A stretch of 6,001 nucleotides of DNA from Nitrospirota bacterium (GTDB taxonomy: Bacteria > JACPQY01), in the NCBI GenBank assembly GCA_016190245.1, contig JACPQY010000082.1:1-6001 (forward strand), given 5' to 3'. The translations under genes were made by a program, and so were the position numbers. The notes under the pieces were generated by a model. It was not told where the DNA came from, ran no database searches, and saw only the letters and a list, made by a program, of their open reading frames with translations. This document shows, piece by piece, positions 1 through 6,001 of the stretch (position 1 is the stretch's first letter; every line of letters begins with the position of its first letter).

Positions 1-2
1 GA

Positions 3-3000
3 GGCGGGGGAGGCGGAGGAAGCCCCAGCGACGAATTCCCGCCCCCCCAGGGTGGGACCGAGGGCGACTCGTGTCGTGAGAACACACCGCCACCGGCCAC
101 CCCGCCCCCGTGCGCGGCCACCTCCCCATCCGTGGCGCCCTTGCGCGATGTCAGGTCTGCCCGACTCCCTGCGGACAAGCACGACCCCCGGCGCTCTTCG
201 GCTGCCCAGATCGAGATCGGCATAGATCGCACCACTCCCTCGCATATGTCAGTGCCTTACGACGCCTTCCAAGACATTCCCGACCCCATGCGCTACGGCC
301 ACATCCGTGAGGCCGTGAACACACCGTTGGGCACGCTGCGCTACTCCACCGCGTGGGTCCGCCGCAGTTTCCCCATTCGCAGCCTCATTTACTCTGTTGC
401 CGTCCGCGGGCGCGAACTCATCCCCGATGTCACCGAAATCCGCTTCGCGGTCGGCCCCCTCGCCCGGACGCTCTACTTGAGACCCTACAGCGCCTACTAC
501 GGCAAGCCACCTTCCGAGGACGTCCAAACGGCCGCGCTCCGCCAACTTCTCGTCGAGATCCCCTGGGACGGTACCACAACCTCCAGTGGGGAATCCGTGG
601 CCCTGCCGAACGGGCTCTACACCTATTCCCTCACCGCCACGCACTACTCCAGTCCCGTCATGTCCACCCATGACTACGATCCGGAGACGACCGTAGAGGG
701 CCTGGGCATCAAGCCCGTCGAGTGCCATGAACTCCCCTGCTCCCTGCCCGGAGAATCACCGGCTTTGCCCAATCTCCTCGCCGGCCCCCCAACAGACCTC
801 TCCGGCTACGTCCTCGTCGCCGACCTCTCCGATTCTCCCTTCGGTCGCGGCTGGTGGCCCGACTTCTACGAAGAACTCTGGTTCTCGCCGGACAAGACCG
901 CCATCGTCCGCTTCACCGCCTCCGGGACCACCCTCTACCGCCTCGACCCCACCACCGGCGAATACATCAACGGCCCCGAACGCCTCCTCCCCTCCCCCGA
1001 CGGCTTCGACCTCATCGACTCCTCTCGACTTCCCGACTTCCCGACCTCCCGATTTCTCGCCTCCGGCAAGCCTGTTTCCATCGGTTCCACCTTCTTCTTC
1101 TACGACTCCGACAACCACCTCTCCGGCCTCGGCGATACCGACTCCGCCCCCACCACCCACTTCACCTACACTGGGGACCGTATCGCCTCCATCTCCGGTC
1201 CCGGCTTCACCCTCACGCTGGAACACGACCCCGACGGGCGCCTCCTCTCCATCACCGGCACGTCCACGAACGCCGCCATGACCTACGACGACCGCCACCT
1301 CCTCACCTCCCTCGACTCCCGACTGTCCGCCGAATGGCGGACTCCAGACTCCCGCGCTTACGCTTACGACGACCAAGCCCGCGTCCTCACCCTCTCCACC
1401 GCTTCCGGCACCCAGGAAATCGTCTACTCCTCCATTCTTAACTTCACCCCGCGCTTCTTTGCCGAGGCCCAGGAAAACGACCTCGCCCGCCCCTACGACA
1501 TCAGCGCCGTCTACCGCCAAGCCACGGAACAAGACTGCTCCCCCGTCACCTCCCGCGCCTCCGTCCTGGCCGCCATCACCACGGACCCGCCCGGCCTGAC
1601 CCTCGGTGACCACGACCCCGGCCCCCTCCTGTGCATGGGCACCATCCGAGGCCTCACCGGCCCAGGCTCCACCGACCGCATCCTGCTCACCACCGGCGAA
1701 ATCCTTCAGCTCGGCGGGGAAGACGCCGCATTCTTTACCTGGCCCTTTCCCCCCGAGGTAACCGAATCCCCCACGGTCAGCCGCTACGCCCTCACCGCGC
1801 GCTACACCATCGAGACAGGCGAACTGGGCACTGTCCGCCGCCGGTTGCTCTTCAAAGGGGAAGAAACCCTCCCCGAAAAACACGAGACCCTCGACGTGCC
1901 GCCCTTTTCGACTGACACCCTTTCCTGCACCGTGGACTTCAGATCCAAGACGACCCTCTTCGAACCCAGCAGCAACCGCATCCGCTCCACGAGCGGAGAC
2001 GACATCCCCCCCGCCATCCTCGGCTCACGCTCCGAGCGGCTCGGCCCCGCCGTCTGCCTCGCCCCCTCGGCCCCCCCCAACACCACCTACTCCTATGACG
2101 ACCTCGGCCGCCTCATCGCCAAGCTCTCCCCGGAAGGCACCACCACCTACGAATACGATGAACTCTCCCGCATCACCAAAATCACCGATCCCTACGATCG
2201 CGTTCTGGCTCTCAGCTATCAGCCCTCAGCTCTCAGCCCAGACTCACGACTCCCGACTGCCGACTCCCGACTCTCGAGCATCACCGATCCGCTCGGCCGC
2301 ACCACTTCCTTCACCTACGACGACCTCGGGCGCCTCACCTCCGTGACCGACCCCCTTGGAGGCCTCACACAAATCATCCCCGGACCCGCCGACGACAAAC
2401 CCCTCTTCATCACCGACCCCCTCGGCCACACCACGGGTTTCCGCTATGACAACACCGGCAATGTCCTCGAAGTCGTCGATGCCCTCGGCGGCACCACCTC
2501 TTACACGTACTCCCGACTGCCTACTGCCGACTCCCGACTCACGACTATGACCAACTCCCTCTCCCAAACCACCTCCTTCGGCTACGACGAAAACGGCCAC
2601 CTCGTCCGCATCACCAACCCCCTGGGCCAGACCCGCCTCCTCGAACGCTCCCCCGACGGCCTGGTCCTGCGAGACACCCGGGCCTCCGGGGAGGTCCTCG
2701 ACTACATCTACGGCGCCACCTCCCCCCTCGGCCGGCCCTTGCTCACAACGCTCTCCACCCTGGGGGGCGCGCCGGACCTCGCTTCGCCCAGCCTGAAGTA
2801 CGATGCGGAGGGCCGCCTCCTCTCCTTCAGCCTTCGCTACAAGGAAAACTTCACGTTTGCGTACGACTCCTTTGGGCGCGTCAGCCAAGTGAAACAGGGC
2901 GGGGCCGGGACCACTCTCGAAACGGAATACATCCAGGACGGCACGCCCGCCGCAGGCCAGCGCACCCGACTCGTCCTCAAGGACTCCTCCGGCCAAGAGT

Positions 3001-4766
3001 TGGGCGTGGTCGCCTACACCTACGACTCCCGCGGGCGCCTCGTCTCCCTCACGCCCACCGTCCAAGGCTCCTCCCCCGGCTCCATCACCCTCGAATACGA
3101 CAACTTCGACCGCCGCACGAAACTCACCTACCCCAACGGAACCTCCACCACCTACGAGTACGATGGCGTTTCAAGGCTTGCCTCCATCCACCACCAACGC
3201 GCCGGCGGCACCACCCTCTCCCGCTTCGACTACACCTACGATGCCGTGAGCAACATCACCTCCATCAGTGAGCAGTCGGCGGTGAGCAGTGAGTCCGCCC
3301 CTGCACGTTCTCGTAGTTCCCTCCCCTTCGTAAGGGGAGGCAAGGTGGGGTCGAGCCGATCCTCTTCTCGCCCCCCCCGCCCTCCGAAAATCCAACGGGC
3401 TCCCGGGCTCTCGGGTTCCCTGGTTCACAACTACCAGTACGACCCCCTCTACCGCCTCACCTCCGCCGGGCTCTCCGGTTCCCTGGCTCCCGGGCTCACG
3501 AGCGAAAACTTCAACTACGACGCGACCGGCAACTTCTTCTCCGCTCCGGGGGGCTCCCACGCCCTCCACGACAACGCCTCCCGTCTGCTACAATGGGGGA
3601 ACTGGGAGATGGAGTACGACGCCTCGGGCCGACTGACCCGGAAGATCAATTCCGTCACCGGCGCCTCTTGGTCCTACGCCTGGAACGCCTTTGACCAGCT
3701 CACCCTCGTCACCTGCACGCCTCCTTCGTCCCCCCCGCCTGTAGGGACGCCTTCCGATCCGTCCGGAGCCTCCTGCGACGTCCCCACCACCGTCAGCTAC
3801 TCCTACGGCCTCTTCGGCGCCATCGTCTTGCGCAAGGCGACCACGGTCCAGAATCAGGTCCCCCTCGTCGAAGAAACCCGCTACGTCCTGGACGGCCTCG
3901 ATACCGTGGCGGAAATTGATTCCGACTGCTCACCGCTCACTGCTGACTGCTTACGGCGGTTCTACGTCCACGGCCCCGGCATCGATGAACCGTTGGCGAT
4001 GTGGTCCGCCCCGGTTCCCGGGCTCCCTGGTTCCCCGGCTCCCGGCTCTTGGCACTTCGTCCACGCCGATCACCTCGGCTCGATCACCGAGATCACCGAC
4101 TCCACCGGTACCCTCGCCGCGCAGTACCGGTACTCGGCCTTCGGTTCCCGATTCACCGTTCTCGATCCTCCCGTCGGCCTCTCGGCTTCCCTGCTTCCCG
4201 GCTTCACGGGTCGCCCCTGGGACCCCGACGCCCAACTCCACCACTACCGCTTCCGCTGGTACGACCCCGAGGTCGGGCGCTTCATCAGCGAGGATGCCCC
4301 CCCCATCCTCATCTCTGACGACCCCATCCTCTTCCTCCGACCGAGCGAAGGAAGCATACGCCAATCAAACAAATCGTGGAAGCAATTCTGGCGGCGAACA
4401 CGGTACACTCTTGACATAATGGATAGCCCGATCAATGTCCCTTCACGCCTTCGCACTACGGGTGCCCATACGCCTTCGCACAGGCTGACACGCCCCGGAG
4501 CAGCCCTCGACGATCCCAGCTCTCTCCACCCGTACACGTACGCTTCGGGTAATCCGATCAATCTTATCGACCCCACCGGTCTAGCCAAGAAGCAGGACTG
4601 CTTTCGATCCAAGTGCTATTCCGTGTGTAGAACCCAGTGGCATTACACTTGCGGTGTATCCTGTACAATAGTGTGCTTCGGCCAGCCCGAGCTCTTCGTC
4701 CCCTGCTATGTCTTTTGTCAGGCCGTGGCAACATCCGTGTGCCAGCAGCGATGTGACTGCTACTAA
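3..4766 (+). CDS. RHS/YD-repeat protein with cysteine-rich C-terminal tip (5' partial)
   Basis: Large RHS-family protein. The family forms a beta-barrel shell that encloses a variable C-terminal tip, often a toxin, delivered to neighbouring cells. The frame has no stop back to base 3, with a Gly/Pro-rich stretch there, and neither GTG 132 nor ATG 246 has a Shine-Dalgarno sequence, so the start is probably upstream. Residues counted from GTG 132: WDG 145-147 with PNGLYTY 159-165 resembles a FlgD-type Ig-like fold; SPFGRGWW 235-242 is common before YD repeats; YD motifs are scattered from about 324 and dense from 655 (YDDLGRL, ITDPLGRTTSFTYD); DHLGSI starts at 1313; YDPEVGRFISED is 1377-1388; PINLIDPTGL ends at 1484; residues 1486-1544 are the tip. 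Odd features are many in-frame repeat islands and a 64-codon insert between core and end motif. No PAAR, signal peptide or secretion domain is visible, so the export route is unknown. RHS assignment is near certain; toxicity is inferred. Confidence 0.95.
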   Translation, partial: GGGGGGSPSDEFPPPQGGTEGDSCRENTPPPATPPPCAATSPSVAPLRDVRSARLPADKHDPRRSSAAQIEIGIDRTTPSHMSVPYDAFQDIPDPMRYGHIREAVNTPLGTLRYSTAWVRRSFPIRSLIYSVAVRGRELIPDVTEIRFAVGPLARTLYLRPYSAYYGKPPSEDVQTAALRQLLVEIPWDGTTTSSGESVALPNGLYTYSLTATHYSSPVMSTHDYDPETTVEGLGIKPVECHELPCSLPGESPALPNLLAGPPTDLSGYVLVADLSDSPFGRGWWPDFYEELWFSPDKTAIVRFTASGTTLYRLDPTTGEYINGPERLLPSPDGFDLIDSSRLPDFPTSRFLASGKPVSIGSTFFFYDSDNHLSGLGDTDSAPTTHFTYTGDRIASISGPGFTLTLEHDPDGRLLSITGTSTNAAMTYDDRHLLTSLDSRLSAEWRTPDSRAYAYDDQARVLTLSTASGTQEIVYSSILNFTPRFFAEAQENDLARPYDISAVYRQATEQDCSPVTSRASVLAAITTDPPGLTLGDHDPGPLLCMGTIRGLTGPGSTDRILLTTGEILQLGGEDAAFFTWPFPPEVTESPTVSRYALTARYTIETGELGTVRRRLLFKGEETLPEKHETLDVPPFSTDTLSCTVDFRSKTTLFEPSSNRIRSTSGDDIPPAILGSRSERLGPAVCLAPSAPPNTTYSYDDLGRLIAKLSPEGTTTYEYDELSRITKITDPYDRVLALSYQPSALSPDSRLPTADSRLSSITDPLGRTTSFTYDDLGRLTSVTDPLGGLTQIIPGPADDKPLFITDPLGHTTGFRYDNTGNVLEVVDALGGTTSYTYSRLPTADSRLTTMTNSLSQTTSFGYDENGHLVRITNPLGQTRLLERSPDGLVLRDTRASGEVLDYIYGATSPLGRPLLTTLSTLGGAPDLASPSLKYDAEGRLLSFSLRYKENFTFAYDSFGRVSQVKQGGAGTTLETEYIQDGTPAAGQRTRLVLKDSSGQELGVVAYTYDSRGRLVSLTPTVQGSSPGSITLEYDNFDRRTKLTYPNGTSTTYEYDGVSRLASIHHQRAGGTTLSRFDYTYDAVSNITSISEQSAVSSESAPARSRSSLPFVRGGKVGSSRSSSRPPRPPKIQRAPGLSGSLVHNYQYDPLYRLTSAGLSGSLAPGLTSENFNYDATGNFFSAPGGSHALHDNASRLLQWGNWEMEYDASGRLTRKINSVTGASWSYAWNAFDQLTLVTCTPPSSPPPVGTPSDPSGASCDVPTTVSYSYGLFGAIVLRKATTVQNQVPLVEETRYVLDGLDTVAEIDSDCSPLTADCLRRFYVHGPGIDEPLAMWSAPVPGLPGSPAPGSWHFVHADHLGSITEITDSTGTLAAQYRYSAFGSRFTVLDPPVGLSASLLPGFTGRPWDPDAQLHHYRFRWYDPEVGRFISEDAPPILISDDPILFLRPSEGSIRQSNKSWKQFWRRTRYTLDIMDSPINVPSRLRTTGAHTPSHRLTRPGAALDDPSSLHPYTYASGNPINLIDPTGLAKKQDCFRSKCYSVCRTQWHYTCGVSCTIVCFGQPELFVPCYVFCQAVATSVCQQRCDCY
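1023..1062 (+). repeat. 8-bp tandem repeat island inside RHS gene
   Basis: Five imperfect copies of an octamer of the type tcccgact run head to tail and are translated as SRLPDFPTSRFLA. The island lies in the N-terminal part of the YD region, between PDGFDLIDS and SGKPVSIGS, and keeps the frame open. Confidence 0.7.
1313..1353 (+). repeat. 7-bp repeats flanking a 7-bp-stem hairpin
   Basis: Two heptamers (cgactcc, cgactgt) on the left and two (gactcca, gactccc) on the right flank a perfect hairpin, gtccgcc at 1325-1331, loop gaat, ggcggac at 1336-1342. The whole is translated in frame as DSRLSAEWRTPDSR, between two YD-type segments (TYDDRHLLTS and YAYDDQARVLTL). Confidence 0.65.
2211..2273 (+). 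repeat. Nine-unit heptanucleotide tandem repeat inside RHS gene
   Basis: Nine consecutive 7-bp units occupy exactly 63 bp: four of the ctcagct/ctcagcc type, then five of the cagactc to ccgactc type. Sixty-three bp is 21 codons, so the array preserves the reading frame. It falls in the loop of a YD repeat, between the LALSY and LSSITDPLGR motifs, where an ordinary repeat would have only about five residues. Confidence 0.85.
2511..2545 (+). repeat. Five-unit heptanucleotide repeat inside RHS gene
   Basis: Five 7-bp units of the tcccgac/tgccgac type are translated as SRLPTADSRLT. The same peptide, SRLPTADSRL, is produced by the array 300 bp upstream. It replaces the usual short loop between TSYTY and TMTNSLSQTTSFGYD. 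Confidence 0.8.
3267..3294 (+). repeat. Four-unit heptanucleotide repeat, opposite orientation
   Basis: Four units (agtgagc, agtcggc, ggtgagc, agtgagt) are translated as SEQSAVSSES. The units resemble the reverse complement of the tgctcac/gccgact heptamers elsewhere in the gene. A pure agtgagc array would contain an in-frame TGA; here the second unit is agtcggc, which avoids it. Confidence 0.75.
3318..3352 (+). repeat. REP-like palindromic element translated within RHS gene
   Basis: A perfect 9-bp stem, cctcccctt at 3320-3328 and aaggggagg at 3332-3340 with a 3-base loop, is followed by caaggtgggg. This resembles the dispersed palindromes with a ccctcccctt...aaggggagg core seen in many bacterial genomes, usually between genes. 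Here it is read through as SLPFVRGGKVG, in an Arg/Ser/Pro-rich insertion unlike the surrounding YD repeats. Confidence 0.65.
3397..3428 (+). repeat. Four-unit octanucleotide repeat inside RHS gene
   Basis: Four 8-bp units (gggctccc, gggctctc, gggttccc, tggttcac) are translated as APGLSGSLVH, just before the YD motif NYQYDPLYRLTS. A second array of the same family follows about 40 bp later. Confidence 0.75.
3468..3499 (+). repeat. Four-unit octanucleotide repeat inside RHS gene
   Basis: Four 8-bp units (gggctctc, cggttccc, tggctccc, gggctcac) are translated as AGLSGSLAPGLT, immediately before the YD motif ENFNYDATGN. It belongs to the same family as the array just upstream, from which it is separated by one YD motif. 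Confidence 0.75.
3927..3954 (+). repeat. Four-unit heptanucleotide repeat in the RHS core
   Basis: Four 7-bp units (tgctcac, cgctcac, tgctgac, tgcttac) encode CSPLTADCLRR, just before FYVHGPGIDEP. The same island is present at the homologous place in the downstream RHS fragment (5708-5735), so it was acquired before the two copies separated or has been shared by recombination. Confidence 0.75.
4012..4043 (+). repeat. Four-unit octanucleotide repeat in the RHS core
   Basis: Four 8-bp units (cggttccc, gggctccc, tggttccc, cggctccc) encode PVPGLPGSPAPG between the MW of IDEPLAMW and the HFVHADHLGSI core motif. The homologous site in the downstream copy carries a different, 7-bp repeat. Confidence 0.8.
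4173..4204 (+). repeat. Octanucleotide repeat before the FTGR core motif
   Basis: Four imperfect 8-bp units (gtcggcct, ctcggctt, ccctgctt, cccggctt) encode VGLSASLLPG directly before GFTGRPWDPD. The island fills the loop between the RYSAFGSR motif and the FTGR motif of the RHS core. Confidence 0.65.
4317..4520 (+). other. In-frame 192-bp insert between RHS core and end-of-core motif
   Basis: In RHS proteins the GRFISED motif is usually followed within a dozen or so residues by the (L)xxYxYxxNPxNxxDPxGL motif. Here about 76 residues separate FISED (ending at 1388) from LHPYTYASGN (starting at 1465). The segment is bracketed by two 12-bp sequences that match at 10 positions, gacgaccccatc at 4317-4328 and gacgatcccagc at 4509-4520, exactly 192 bp (64 codons) apart. 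Removing one unit would restore a normal-looking junction, SDDP followed by SSLHPYTY. The inside is visibly less GC-rich and holds a 12-bp direct repeat (acgccttcgcac at 4445-4456 and 4470-4481). No terminal inverted repeats or transposase were found. Origin is inferred. Confidence 0.45.
4587..4763 (+). other. Cysteine-rich variable tip of the RHS protein
   Basis: This segment encodes the 59 residues after the DPTGLA end-of-core motif, where RHS proteins carry their variable effector tip. It contains 11 cysteines. Residues 1495-1511 and 1525-1541 share exactly the same spacing, Cys-x3-Cys-x7-Cys-x3-Cys, and both begin Cys-Tyr, so the tip looks like an internal duplication joined by a short linker holding one more cysteine (1515). 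The i, i+4 spacing fits paired helices stapled by disulfides, or metal binding. It is much shorter than typical nuclease or deaminase tips (often 80-150 residues), and I recognise no catalytic motif. It may be a small disulfide-rich or membrane-active toxin, or only a structural tail. Confidence 0.7.
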
Positions 4767-4768
4767 GT

Positions 4769-5296
4769 ATGGACACATATCTGCTAACGACCGGAGAGGG
4801 CGTCCAGGATCGCCACTCCGACCCCATCCATTCCGCCTTGGTGTCGCTCTTCGCCCGCGTGCGATCATTGTTCAGCGGGCCTCGCCTAATCCTCCGGCTA
4901 CTGCTCTGGTTGGTCATGTCGCTGGCCCTGCTTGTCTTCCACATCAAGCAGAGCCCCACCGAACACGTCACAACCGCGGGAATGGCCGTCGGAGTAGCTC
5001 TTGGAGGCCTCTTCGGCTTGGCCTATAACCGATATCTCAGGAGGGGTATTAGGCAGAATGAATACATTAGGCCTCCCAGGACTGACCTGCTGAAACAAGG
5101 TATCATCCTCATCCCAACAATGCTGATTTTCTGGCATTTCTTGCCACAACTCGTTGATGATTCAAAGGTTTGGAACCGATTCTTTGTATTCCCCTTCTTC
5201 TTGCTGCTGCCTGTTGGGATGCTCTATAACGTTCTCTGGCTGAATGAGTATGAGAGGAAGGTTGGGCCGGTCGTGATTCGGAAACACCGTAGATGA
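4769..5296 (+). CDS. Four-helix membrane protein, candidate immunity/partner of the RHS tip
   Basis: A 175-residue protein with four hydrophobic segments at about residues 40-59, 68-86, 108-128 and 138-158. Basic clusters lie before helix 1, between helices 2 and 3 (NRYLRRGIRQ) and at the C-terminus (RKHRR), while the loop between helices 3 and 4 is acidic (DDSK), which predicts both ends in the cytoplasm. The ATG is 2 bases after the RHS stop and an in-frame TGA at 4754 excludes an earlier start. No Shine-Dalgarno is visible, so translational coupling to the RHS gene is likely. RHS toxin genes are typically followed directly by their immunity gene, and membrane immunity proteins usually counter membrane-active or cell-envelope toxins. 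Its base composition, like that of the tip, is less GC-rich than the RHS core, consistent with the two moving as one cassette. I recognise no family; immunity is inferred from position. Confidence 0.75.
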   Translation: MDTYLLTTGEGVQDRHSDPIHSALVSLFARVRSLFSGPRLILRLLLWLVMSLALLVFHIKQSPTEHVTTAGMAVGVALGGLFGLAYNRYLRRGIRQNEYIRPPRTDLLKQGIILIPTMLIFWHFLPQLVDDSKVWNRFFVFPFFLLLPVGMLYNVLWLNEYERKVGPVVIRKHRR

Positions 5297-5482
5297 CCAG
5301 GCCAGGACTGAGCCGCGATGGAGTAGTCCCAGAGTCGAGTAGTTCATCGGTTGCCCGATTTCACTCTCACAGATCCGGACGGGCCGATGTCCCTCATCCG
5401 GCTCTTCCAAGCGGCTCACCCGGCCGACGCGTGACCCACTGCGAAGGTCGCGCAATGTGGGACGCGCCTTGCCACGGAGGGC
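5297..5482. other. Gene-free spacer between membrane protein and orphan RHS fragment
   Basis: No convincing gene is present; short frames here lack recognisable motifs and overlap structured DNA. The spacer holds a minus-strand group II intron-like motif, a small atcgg/ccgat hairpin (5346-5359) and an imperfect stem (gcgtgacc 5429-5436 with ggtcgcgc 5446-5453). No terminator with a T-run was seen after the membrane-protein gene. Confidence 0.5.
5346..5404 (-). other. Degenerate group II intron domain V/VI-like sequence
   Basis: Read on the minus strand, 5404 to 5372 begins GAGCCGGATGAGGG and ends CGTCCGGATC. This matches the outline of a group II intron domain V (about 34 nt, GAGCCG at the 5' end, a CGG-containing 3' arm, AGC triad), with 33 bases and imperfect pairing. 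Right after it, on the same strand, comes a small hairpin (atcggg...ccgat), where domain VI would lie. No maturase reading frame is in the window. If real it is an intron relic; a chance hairpin remains possible. Confidence 0.35.
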
Positions 5483-6001
5483 ATGGTGCCACGAGATGAA
5501 GCCCCGCAGGATGCGGGGCATCCTACGTGGCATTCCGATCCGTCCGGAGCCTCCTGCGACGTCCCCACCACCGTCAGCTACGCCTACGGACTGTTTGGCG
5601 CCATCGTCTTGCGCAAGGCGACCACGGTCCAGAATCAGGTCCCCCTCGTCGAGGAAACCCGCTACGTGATGGATGGTCTCGACACGATCGCCGAGATCGA
5701 TCCCAACTGCTCACCGCTCACTGCCGACTGCTTACGGCGGTTCTACGTCCACGGCCCCGGAATAGATGAACCGATGGCCCTTTGGGCCTCGGGAGTCGGC
5801 AGTGGGCAGTCGGCAGGCGAGTGGTTCTATTACCTTGCGGATCACTTGGGCTCGATCACCGAGATCACCGACTCCACCGGCGCCCTCGCCGCGCAGTACC
5901 GGTACTCGGCCTACGGGACCAGGACGGCCCTGTACTCGCCCGTCAACGCCGTCCCAGGAGGGGCGGCGACAGAAGGCGAGTACGGCCCCGTATCCGTCAA
6001 C
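5483..6001 (+). CDS. Orphan RHS core fragment (3' partial)
   Basis: This frame is open from 5435, after a TGA at 5432, to the right edge; the first ATG is 5483. From 5534 it encodes the same RHS core segment as the main gene: SDPSGASCDVPTTVSYAYG, then FYVHGPGIDEP, LADHLGSITEIT and QYRYSAYGTR, after which the sequence diverges. It lacks the shell-forming YD region. Orphan RHS fragments with a short core part and a different tip are a known feature of RHS loci; recombination with the full gene can swap tips. Codon differences from the main copy are mostly synonymous, so the segment has evolved as coding sequence. No Shine-Dalgarno precedes 5483 and the first 17 codons come from a palindromic repeat region, so it may be a silent cassette. 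Its tip lies outside the window. Confidence 0.7.
   Translation, partial: MVPRDEAPQDAGHPTWHSDPSGASCDVPTTVSYAYGLFGAIVLRKATTVQNQVPLVEETRYVMDGLDTIAEIDPNCSPLTADCLRRFYVHGPGIDEPMALWASGVGSGQSAGEWFYYLADHLGSITEITDSTGALAAQYRYSAYGTRTALYSPVNAVPGGAATEGEYGPVSVN
5501..5519 (+). repeat. 8-bp-stem palindrome at the border of the duplicated RHS segment
   Basis: A perfect hairpin, gccccgca, loop gga, tgcggggc, is followed by catcctacg. No T-run follows, so it is more like a dispersed palindromic repeat than a terminator. It lies 13 bases upstream of the point where homology to the main RHS gene begins, and inside the open frame of the orphan fragment. Confidence 0.6.
5708..5735 (+). repeat. Four-unit heptanucleotide repeat in the orphan RHS fragment
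   Basis: Same units as 3927-3954 with one substitution (tgccgac for tgctgac), at the homologous position, encoding CSPLTADCLRR. Confidence 0.75.
5794..5814 (+). repeat. Three-unit heptanucleotide repeat in the orphan RHS fragment
   Basis: Units agtcggc, agtgggc, agtcggc encode GVGSGQSAGE between MALWA and WFYYLADHLGSI. The homologous loop of the main gene instead has an 8-bp array of unrelated sequence. Confidence 0.75.

Follow-up and report, generated by a model that had tools for sequence, protein, structure and literature searches.

The RHS gene and its cysteine-rich tip

The DNA analysed here, a stretch of 6,001 bases from a Nitrospirota bacterium (referred to below as the window), is exactly contig JACPQY010000082.1. 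On its forward strand it carries an RHS gene with a short C-terminal tip rich in cysteine, and next to it an open reading frame (ORF) with four hydrophobic helices. The features that concern the tip are the following; the helices are those of an AlphaFold2 (AF2) model.

3-4583, + strand: RHS/YD-repeat core (Pfam RHS_repeat, E=1.2e-56; NCBIfam YD_repeat_2x and Rhs_assc_core)
4587-4763, + strand: 59-residue C-terminal tip with 11 cysteines (from the sequence; hairpin predicted by AF2)
4614-4664, + strand: first C-x3-C-x7-C-x3-C unit, CYSVCRTQWHYTCGVSC (C10, C14, C22, C26)
4704-4754, + strand: second C-x3-C-x7-C-x3-C unit, CYVFCQAVATSVCQQRC (C40, C44, C52, C56)
4590-4673, + strand: predicted helix 1, tip residues 2-29 (C5, C10, C14, C22, C26)
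4686-4754, + strand: predicted helix 2, tip residues 34-56 (C40, C44, C52, C56)

The RHS frame is open at the 5' end of the contig, its earliest internal start being a GTG at 132. It has the order of an RHS toxin: YD/RHS repeats come first, then the Rhs-associated core, then a DPxG junction. The core terminates in DPTGL (4569-4583). The tip, KKQDCFRSKCYSVCRTQWHYTCGVSCTIVCFGQPELFVPCYVFCQAVATSVCQQRCDCY, lies in the same frame immediately after DPTGLA and ends at a TAA stop codon (4764-4766). Its cysteines are residues 5, 10, 14, 22, 26, 30, 40, 44, 52, 56 and 58.

An earlier reading made from the sequence alone had described a 59-residue tip with 11 cysteines and two identically spaced units that both start with Cys-Tyr; this is exact and can be read directly from the window. 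Shuffling the tip residues yields two such units in a fraction of 2.5e-5 of cases, a figure for a pattern picked post hoc; any repeated four-cysteine spacing arises in 0.7% of the shuffles. That reading had also taken the units for a duplicated motif, which our comparison does not bear out. The units share only their cysteines and one tyrosine. The likeness of the remaining residues is at the level of shuffled sequence (P=0.57) and the DNA of one unit agrees with that of the other at only 22 of 51 positions; nothing here points to a duplication. The 3-7-3 spacing is its own mirror image, reading identically in reverse, and the equal spacing of the two units is better explained by mirror symmetry.

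Mirrored cysteines in a predicted hairpin

When the tip alone was modelled by AF2, from its sequence and with no alignment, the result was two antiparallel helices, with a pLDDT (predicted local distance difference test) of 85.9 for the best model and 82.5 for the second. In such a hairpin the facing cysteines are 10-56, 14-52, 22-44 and 26-40, the residue numbers of each pair summing to 66. Because the 3-7-3 pattern is palindromic and the predicted helices are antiparallel, the two units would face each other, which explains the ‘twin’ spacing with no need for duplication. The disulfide-stapled helical hairpin suggested by the sequence-only reading thus gains support from the model, from the mirrored cysteines and from a related tip described below, in which cysteines opposite each other were lost and gained in pairs.

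The same spacing could also be read within each unit. The tip, in the same cassette, would then be two tandem hairpins in the style of the plant α-hairpinins, with disulfides 10-26 and 14-22 in the first and 40-56 and 44-52 in the second. Each unit fits the α-hairpinin motif CX3C-X4-20-CX3C (PMC11591084), and the 3-7-3 spacing is compatible with tandem and mirror readings alike. However, AF2 predicts a helix-turn-helix for the tip as a whole, with a helix running straight through each unit, and the units show no detectable duplication.

A profile built from the RHS junction and three cysteine-rich tips was run over 386 genomes and led to a survey of 122 RHS tips. The tip of G310 is homologous to the window tip, with 13 of 48 identities in an ungapped alignment (z=7.3; 4.7 with the cysteines held fixed). 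It retains cysteines 10, 14, 22, 30, 44, 52 and 56 of the window tip, has lost both members of the mirror pair C26 and C40, and has a new C36 opposite C30; the gaps of this tip are 3-7-7-[5]-7-7-3. This paired loss and gain is as expected of disulfide partners, although it is a single case. The G347 tip has gaps of 3-10-[12]-10-3 with one additional cysteine within the loop. A second profile search, blind to symmetry, brought in G434, which has two tips. Tip a (3-6-7-[12]-7-6-3) is related to the G310 tip (z=5.1). Tip b (3-10-[19]-10-3) stands on a displaced core that follows tip a after a few hundred bases (L321, minus strand, starting near base 2246 of the reverse complement). G001 belongs to the same family as the window, and its tip combines CX3C...CX3C with a single inner cysteine. 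Across these relatives the number of cysteines ranges from 5 to 11.

Mirror symmetry was assessed by holding the first and last cysteine of a tip fixed and placing the others at random. The P values were 0.02 for the window, 0.001 for G310, 0.012 for G347 and 0.11 for G001, four tips that had partly been picked by eye, and 0.0008 and 0.005 for G434 tips a and b, which were found after the mirror idea arose and have a joint P of 6e-5. G050 also has a cysteine-rich tip next to a four-helix ORF, but this tip lacks the mirror (P=0.49), and the symmetry was not seen in the other cysteine-rich tips of the survey, including those resembling phospholipase A2. A six-frame scan of 1.26 Mb for CX3C-Xn-C...C-Xn-CX3C with equal n found 12 segments, five of them RHS tips standing behind a DPxG junction (HPDG in G434 tip b). 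An asymmetric control with 7 times as many combinations found 43 segments; among the 30 listed, the only RHS tips were those of the window and G310, re-indexed.

The related tips speak for a mirror rather than a tandem repeat. G310, both G434 tips and G347 hold one CX3C at each end together with mirrored inner cysteines, and the G434 and G347 tips are symmetric with no repeated unit. The exact C3C7C3C pair, whose conservation the sequence-only reading had put forward as a check, is not kept; the recurrent feature is a CX3C at either end with mirrored cysteines between. We therefore regard tandem hairpins as unlikely.

Cysteines at this density could instead bind zinc or an iron-sulfur cluster, making the tip a small metal-dependent binder or a redox peptide. 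There are 11 cysteines in 59 residues, and helical CX3C pairs are able to hold metals. The window tip has no CXXC pairs, however, and the changing number of cysteines in the relatives, with opposite cysteines changing as pairs, fits disulfides better than fixed ligands. In addition, RHS toxins reach their targets outside the producer, in surroundings in which cysteines tend to oxidise. The metal cluster offered as an alternative in the sequence-only reading thus found nothing specific in its favour, and we keep it as an improbable rival.

The tip did not reveal itself in database searches. The window tip has no significant Pfam, NCBIfam or PDB sequence match; the tips of G310, G347 and G434 have no Pfam or NCBIfam match, and G310 and G434 tip a have no PDB match. 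A tblastn search with the window tip found nothing in plasmids and, in phages, only matches at E of about 5, and plasmid searches with the G310 and G434 tips gave nothing useful. No confirmed relative came from viral contigs (profile A5), nor any further tip from profile searches within the small phyla of G310 and G347. The exact DNA pattern of one unit behind DPxG was present in 31 of the 386 genomes, a number that did not clearly exceed that of a reversed-pattern control. In the GTDB collection, the DNA pattern NP..DPxG followed by two CX3C gave 89 stretches. The 80 that were translated were mostly out-of-frame matches, for example to membrane peptidases, and included no in-frame RHS tip with twin CX3C, partly because the pattern was obliged to begin with AACC. 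Halocin C8 was considered as a cysteine-rich comparison, but no family model matched and no literature link to RHS was found. A phospholipase A2 reading was set aside. The His-Asp motif C-x-x-H-D-x-C of the secreted enzyme is absent from the window tip, as are both the RxxR and Wx[ST]IP motifs of Tox-WTIP.

The cassette and the adjoining membrane protein gene

The tip belongs to a larger arrangement, with these further features in the window.

4769-5296, + strand: 175-codon ORF with four hydrophobic helices, a proposed membrane immunity protein, starting 2 nt after the stop codon of the tip
5530-6001, + strand: displaced copy of the terminal part of the RHS core, running off the contig (90-93% DNA identity to 3749-4007 and 4065-4144)
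4350-5300, no strand: stretch of lower GC content over the tip and the membrane ORF (about 50-60%, with about 65% on both sides)
4308-4517, + strand: in-frame stretch of about 70 codons that splits the Rhs_assc_core match ahead of the DPTG motif; single-copy DNA in the genome

A core, a tip, a small gene and a displaced core fragment are the usual anatomy of a swapped toxin/immunity cassette in RHS and contact-dependent inhibition (CDI) systems. The window has this anatomy, with the compositional shift and displaced core fragment of a variable tip replaced as a cassette, and the displaced core at 5530-6001 is a remnant of an older or the next toxin cassette. Between the membrane ORF and this core lies a small inverted repeat (5500-5525, GCCCCGCAGGATGCGGGGC), which may be a repeat element at the edge of the cassette.

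Alternatively, the tip could be inert, as a degenerate or purely structural RHS terminus with an unrelated gene behind it. The organism is known from a draft genome only, the contig end truncates the RHS gene, and the unexplained 70-codon stretch splits the end of the core. Against this, the frame is intact to the stop codon, the cysteines are organised and the next ORF is 2 nt away, and the GC shift and displaced core copy are accompanied by the same arrangement in other genomes. We consider an inert tip very improbable.

The arrangement recurs. In the window, G001, G050, G310, G347 and G434 tip a, an ORF with 3-5 hydrophobic helices lies within about 40 nt of the tip, and in all six RHS core sequence recurs beyond it. 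In the survey, an ORF with at least three hydrophobic helices comes next after seven of 10 short cysteine-rich tips and after 12 of 81 others (Fisher P=5e-4; 0.006 without the two seed tips, and 0.02 if the phospholipase A2-type tip is also moved); these counts are approximate, because a simple Kyte-Doolittle window served to detect hydrophobic stretches and a rule of distance and length to choose the next ORF. The 175-codon ORF has no confident Pfam or NCBIfam family, and its AF2 model, computed alone, was all helical with a pLDDT of 60.9, too low for a structure search. Position and the recurrence of membrane ORFs beside similar tips uphold the link between the tip and the adjoining membrane protein gene drawn by the sequence-only reading. 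Its idea of a small and possibly membrane-active effector is supported as well.

Other tips in the survey have similar surroundings. Two RHS tips (L219, G131:C9, and L189, G252:C14) resemble secreted phospholipase A2 (CxxHDxC) by eye; that of L219 contains CQAHDDC and is followed by a three-helix membrane ORF. Far larger cysteine-rich RHS tips occur in L244 and L220 (22 cysteines in 197 residues and 19 in 236), followed by membrane ORFs with 4-5 helices. Three consecutive cassettes of RHS core fragment, tip and hydrophobic ORF, with differing tips, were seen in L184 (positions 1-3000, G050:C158).

Proposed action and relation to known toxins

Combining these observations, we propose, with a probability of about 0.6, that the tip is an RHS toxin which acts at the target membrane as a disulfide-ladder hairpin of mirrored cysteines and is neutralised by the downstream membrane ORF. 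The tip and the downstream gene would have been swapped in jointly, as one cassette. Its two predicted antiparallel helices would be joined by a ladder of disulfides 10-56, 14-52, 22-44 and 26-40, leaving C5, C30 and C58 spare. The RHS shell may carry the tip enclosed and reduced, and the tip may be freed at the DPTGL boundary into an oxidising target compartment, where it would fold. Its action would need no enzyme active site: the tip would most likely insert into the cytoplasmic membrane or disrupt it, or alternatively block a protein of the target's membrane. As cognate immunity protein we propose the membrane protein of 175 residues and four helices encoded downstream. Sequence, cassette anatomy, mirror symmetry, its recurrence and the adjoining membrane ORF come from computation and the two-helix fold is a prediction, whereas disulfide pairing, release, toxicity, membrane target and immunity are inferred.

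Several results weigh against this proposal. The odd number of cysteines leaves one unpaired. In a helical wheel the ladder cysteines of the window cover about 130-160 degrees, with no significant bias to one side; the four rungs may therefore not all form simultaneously. The remaining three of the five AF2 models, also made with no alignment, were poor (pLDDT 40-44). No clear solved or viral structural match to the tip was found by Foldseek, with best matches at E 7.3 in PDB and 0.35 in BFVD, or by VIA-align, with Z 3.2 for the sole PDB candidate. The tip has no 19-residue hydrophobic stretch and is not an obvious transmembrane hairpin. The membrane ORFs of different systems could not be aligned to one another (z≤2), which fits fast-evolving immunity proteins yet is no evidence for them. 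The ORF after G434 tip b has, by eye, a single hydrophobic, signal-like N-terminal stretch and is not polytopic. Finally, the aspartyl protease motif DPXG-X18-19-DPXG of the Tse5/RhsA type is not present in the window in that spacing. What stands there instead is DPSS-x15-DPTG, and 92 residues separate the Asp of GRFISED from that of DPTG. Because the spacing is wrong and the 70-codon in-frame stretch lies between the candidate Asp residues, release by the canonical Rhs autoprotease is unsupported. The Rhs_assc_core matches are confined to 4131-4307 and 4518-4583; the split between them falls between GRFISED and DDPSSLHPYTYASGNPINLIDPTG, in DNA of partly lower GC content.

The target could also be a specific envelope enzyme or receptor, with the bilayer left undisturbed and the membrane ORF acting as a decoy or a target shield. 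The window tip is only mildly hydrophobic (grand average of hydropathicity, GRAVY, 0.07; charge +3), so action at the surface or on a protein would also fit, and α-hairpinins have varied protein targets, some of them inhibiting trypsin (PMC11591084). However, some relatives are clearly hydrophobic (GRAVY 0.92 for the G310 tip and 1.07 for G001), and it is a polytopic membrane protein that recurs as the partner. We consider an envelope protein target unlikely.

The RHS tips catalogued so far are mostly enzymes. Precedent for an RHS shell that delivers a membrane toxin comes from Tse5 of P. aeruginosa, a pore-forming Rhs effector (PMC10684867). Like Tse5, the window protein has a YD-repeat shell and, if our proposal is correct, a short non-enzymatic membrane toxin at its C-terminus, as has been shown for Tse5. 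In contrast, Tse5-CT is about 16 kDa, has no cysteine ladder, is delivered by a type VI secretion system and has the autoprotease motif DPXGX19DPXG (PMC10684867). Tox-WTIP, described in the part of the 2012 polymorphic toxin catalogue consulted here, is likewise a two-helix, non-enzymatic, pore-forming tip on RHS proteins, but is characterised by RxxR and Wx[ST]IP motifs instead of cysteines; it is the one pore-forming tip in that part of the catalogue, which mentions no cysteine-based hairpin (PMC3482391).

Disulfide-stapled hairpins are known among free peptides. The peptides of gallocin A, helical hairpins closed by an intramolecular disulfide, permeabilise bilayers and are inactive once reduced (PMC10100652). 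Gallocin-type class IIb bacteriocins resemble the predicted tip in being small, antiparallel, disulfide-linked hairpins with an immunity gene in the same operon, but they are two-peptide systems with a leader, one disulfide per peptide, export by an ATP-binding cassette (ABC) transporter and no RHS fusion (PMC10100652). The window tip is continuous with the RHS frame, unlike a free two-peptide bacteriocin, and no sequence relation to gallocin was shown. Plant α-hairpinins also carry CX3C...CX3C on two antiparallel helices with 2-3 disulfide rungs and are antimicrobial (PMC11591084). They are secreted plant peptides with 4-6 cysteines, whereas the tip is part of a bacterial RHS fusion and would have up to four mirrored rungs on longer helices. 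A parallel for the putative immunity gene is found in the CDI ionophore toxins, which depolarise membranes and are neutralised by small, highly variable, hydrophobic CdiI membrane proteins (PMC11630599). Both systems would pair polymorphic toxin ends with small variable membrane proteins. The CDI ionophores differ in that they form bundles of five helices and are carried by CdiA, with an entry domain, and their immunity proteins have two helices and 72-100 residues (PMC11630599).

The mirror-cysteine rule is the new part; the system is otherwise an RHS polymorphic toxin. More tentatively, at a little under even odds, the mirrored tips may form an uncatalogued and recurrent class of RHS tips, set by the pattern CX3C-Xn-C...C-Xn-CX3C rather than by sequence, in which bacteriocin-like multi-disulfide hairpins, mostly with their own polytopic membrane immunity proteins, occur in several phylum-level lineages. 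If these tips are true toxins, the cargo of RHS shells also includes short, bacteriocin-like disulfide peptides, and a simple palindrome rule detects them where sequence profiles fail. They would also raise the question of how a peptide that requires oxidation stays harmless in its producer yet folds in its target.

The RHS frame also contains short near-repeats, such as CGACTCCCGACT and CTGCCGACT, read as SRLPTADSRL, at 1313-1324, 2241-2275 and 2509-2550. Such near-repeats also lie on the other strand inside the displaced core (5717-5815). They look like a dispersed simple repeat that is tolerated in frame.

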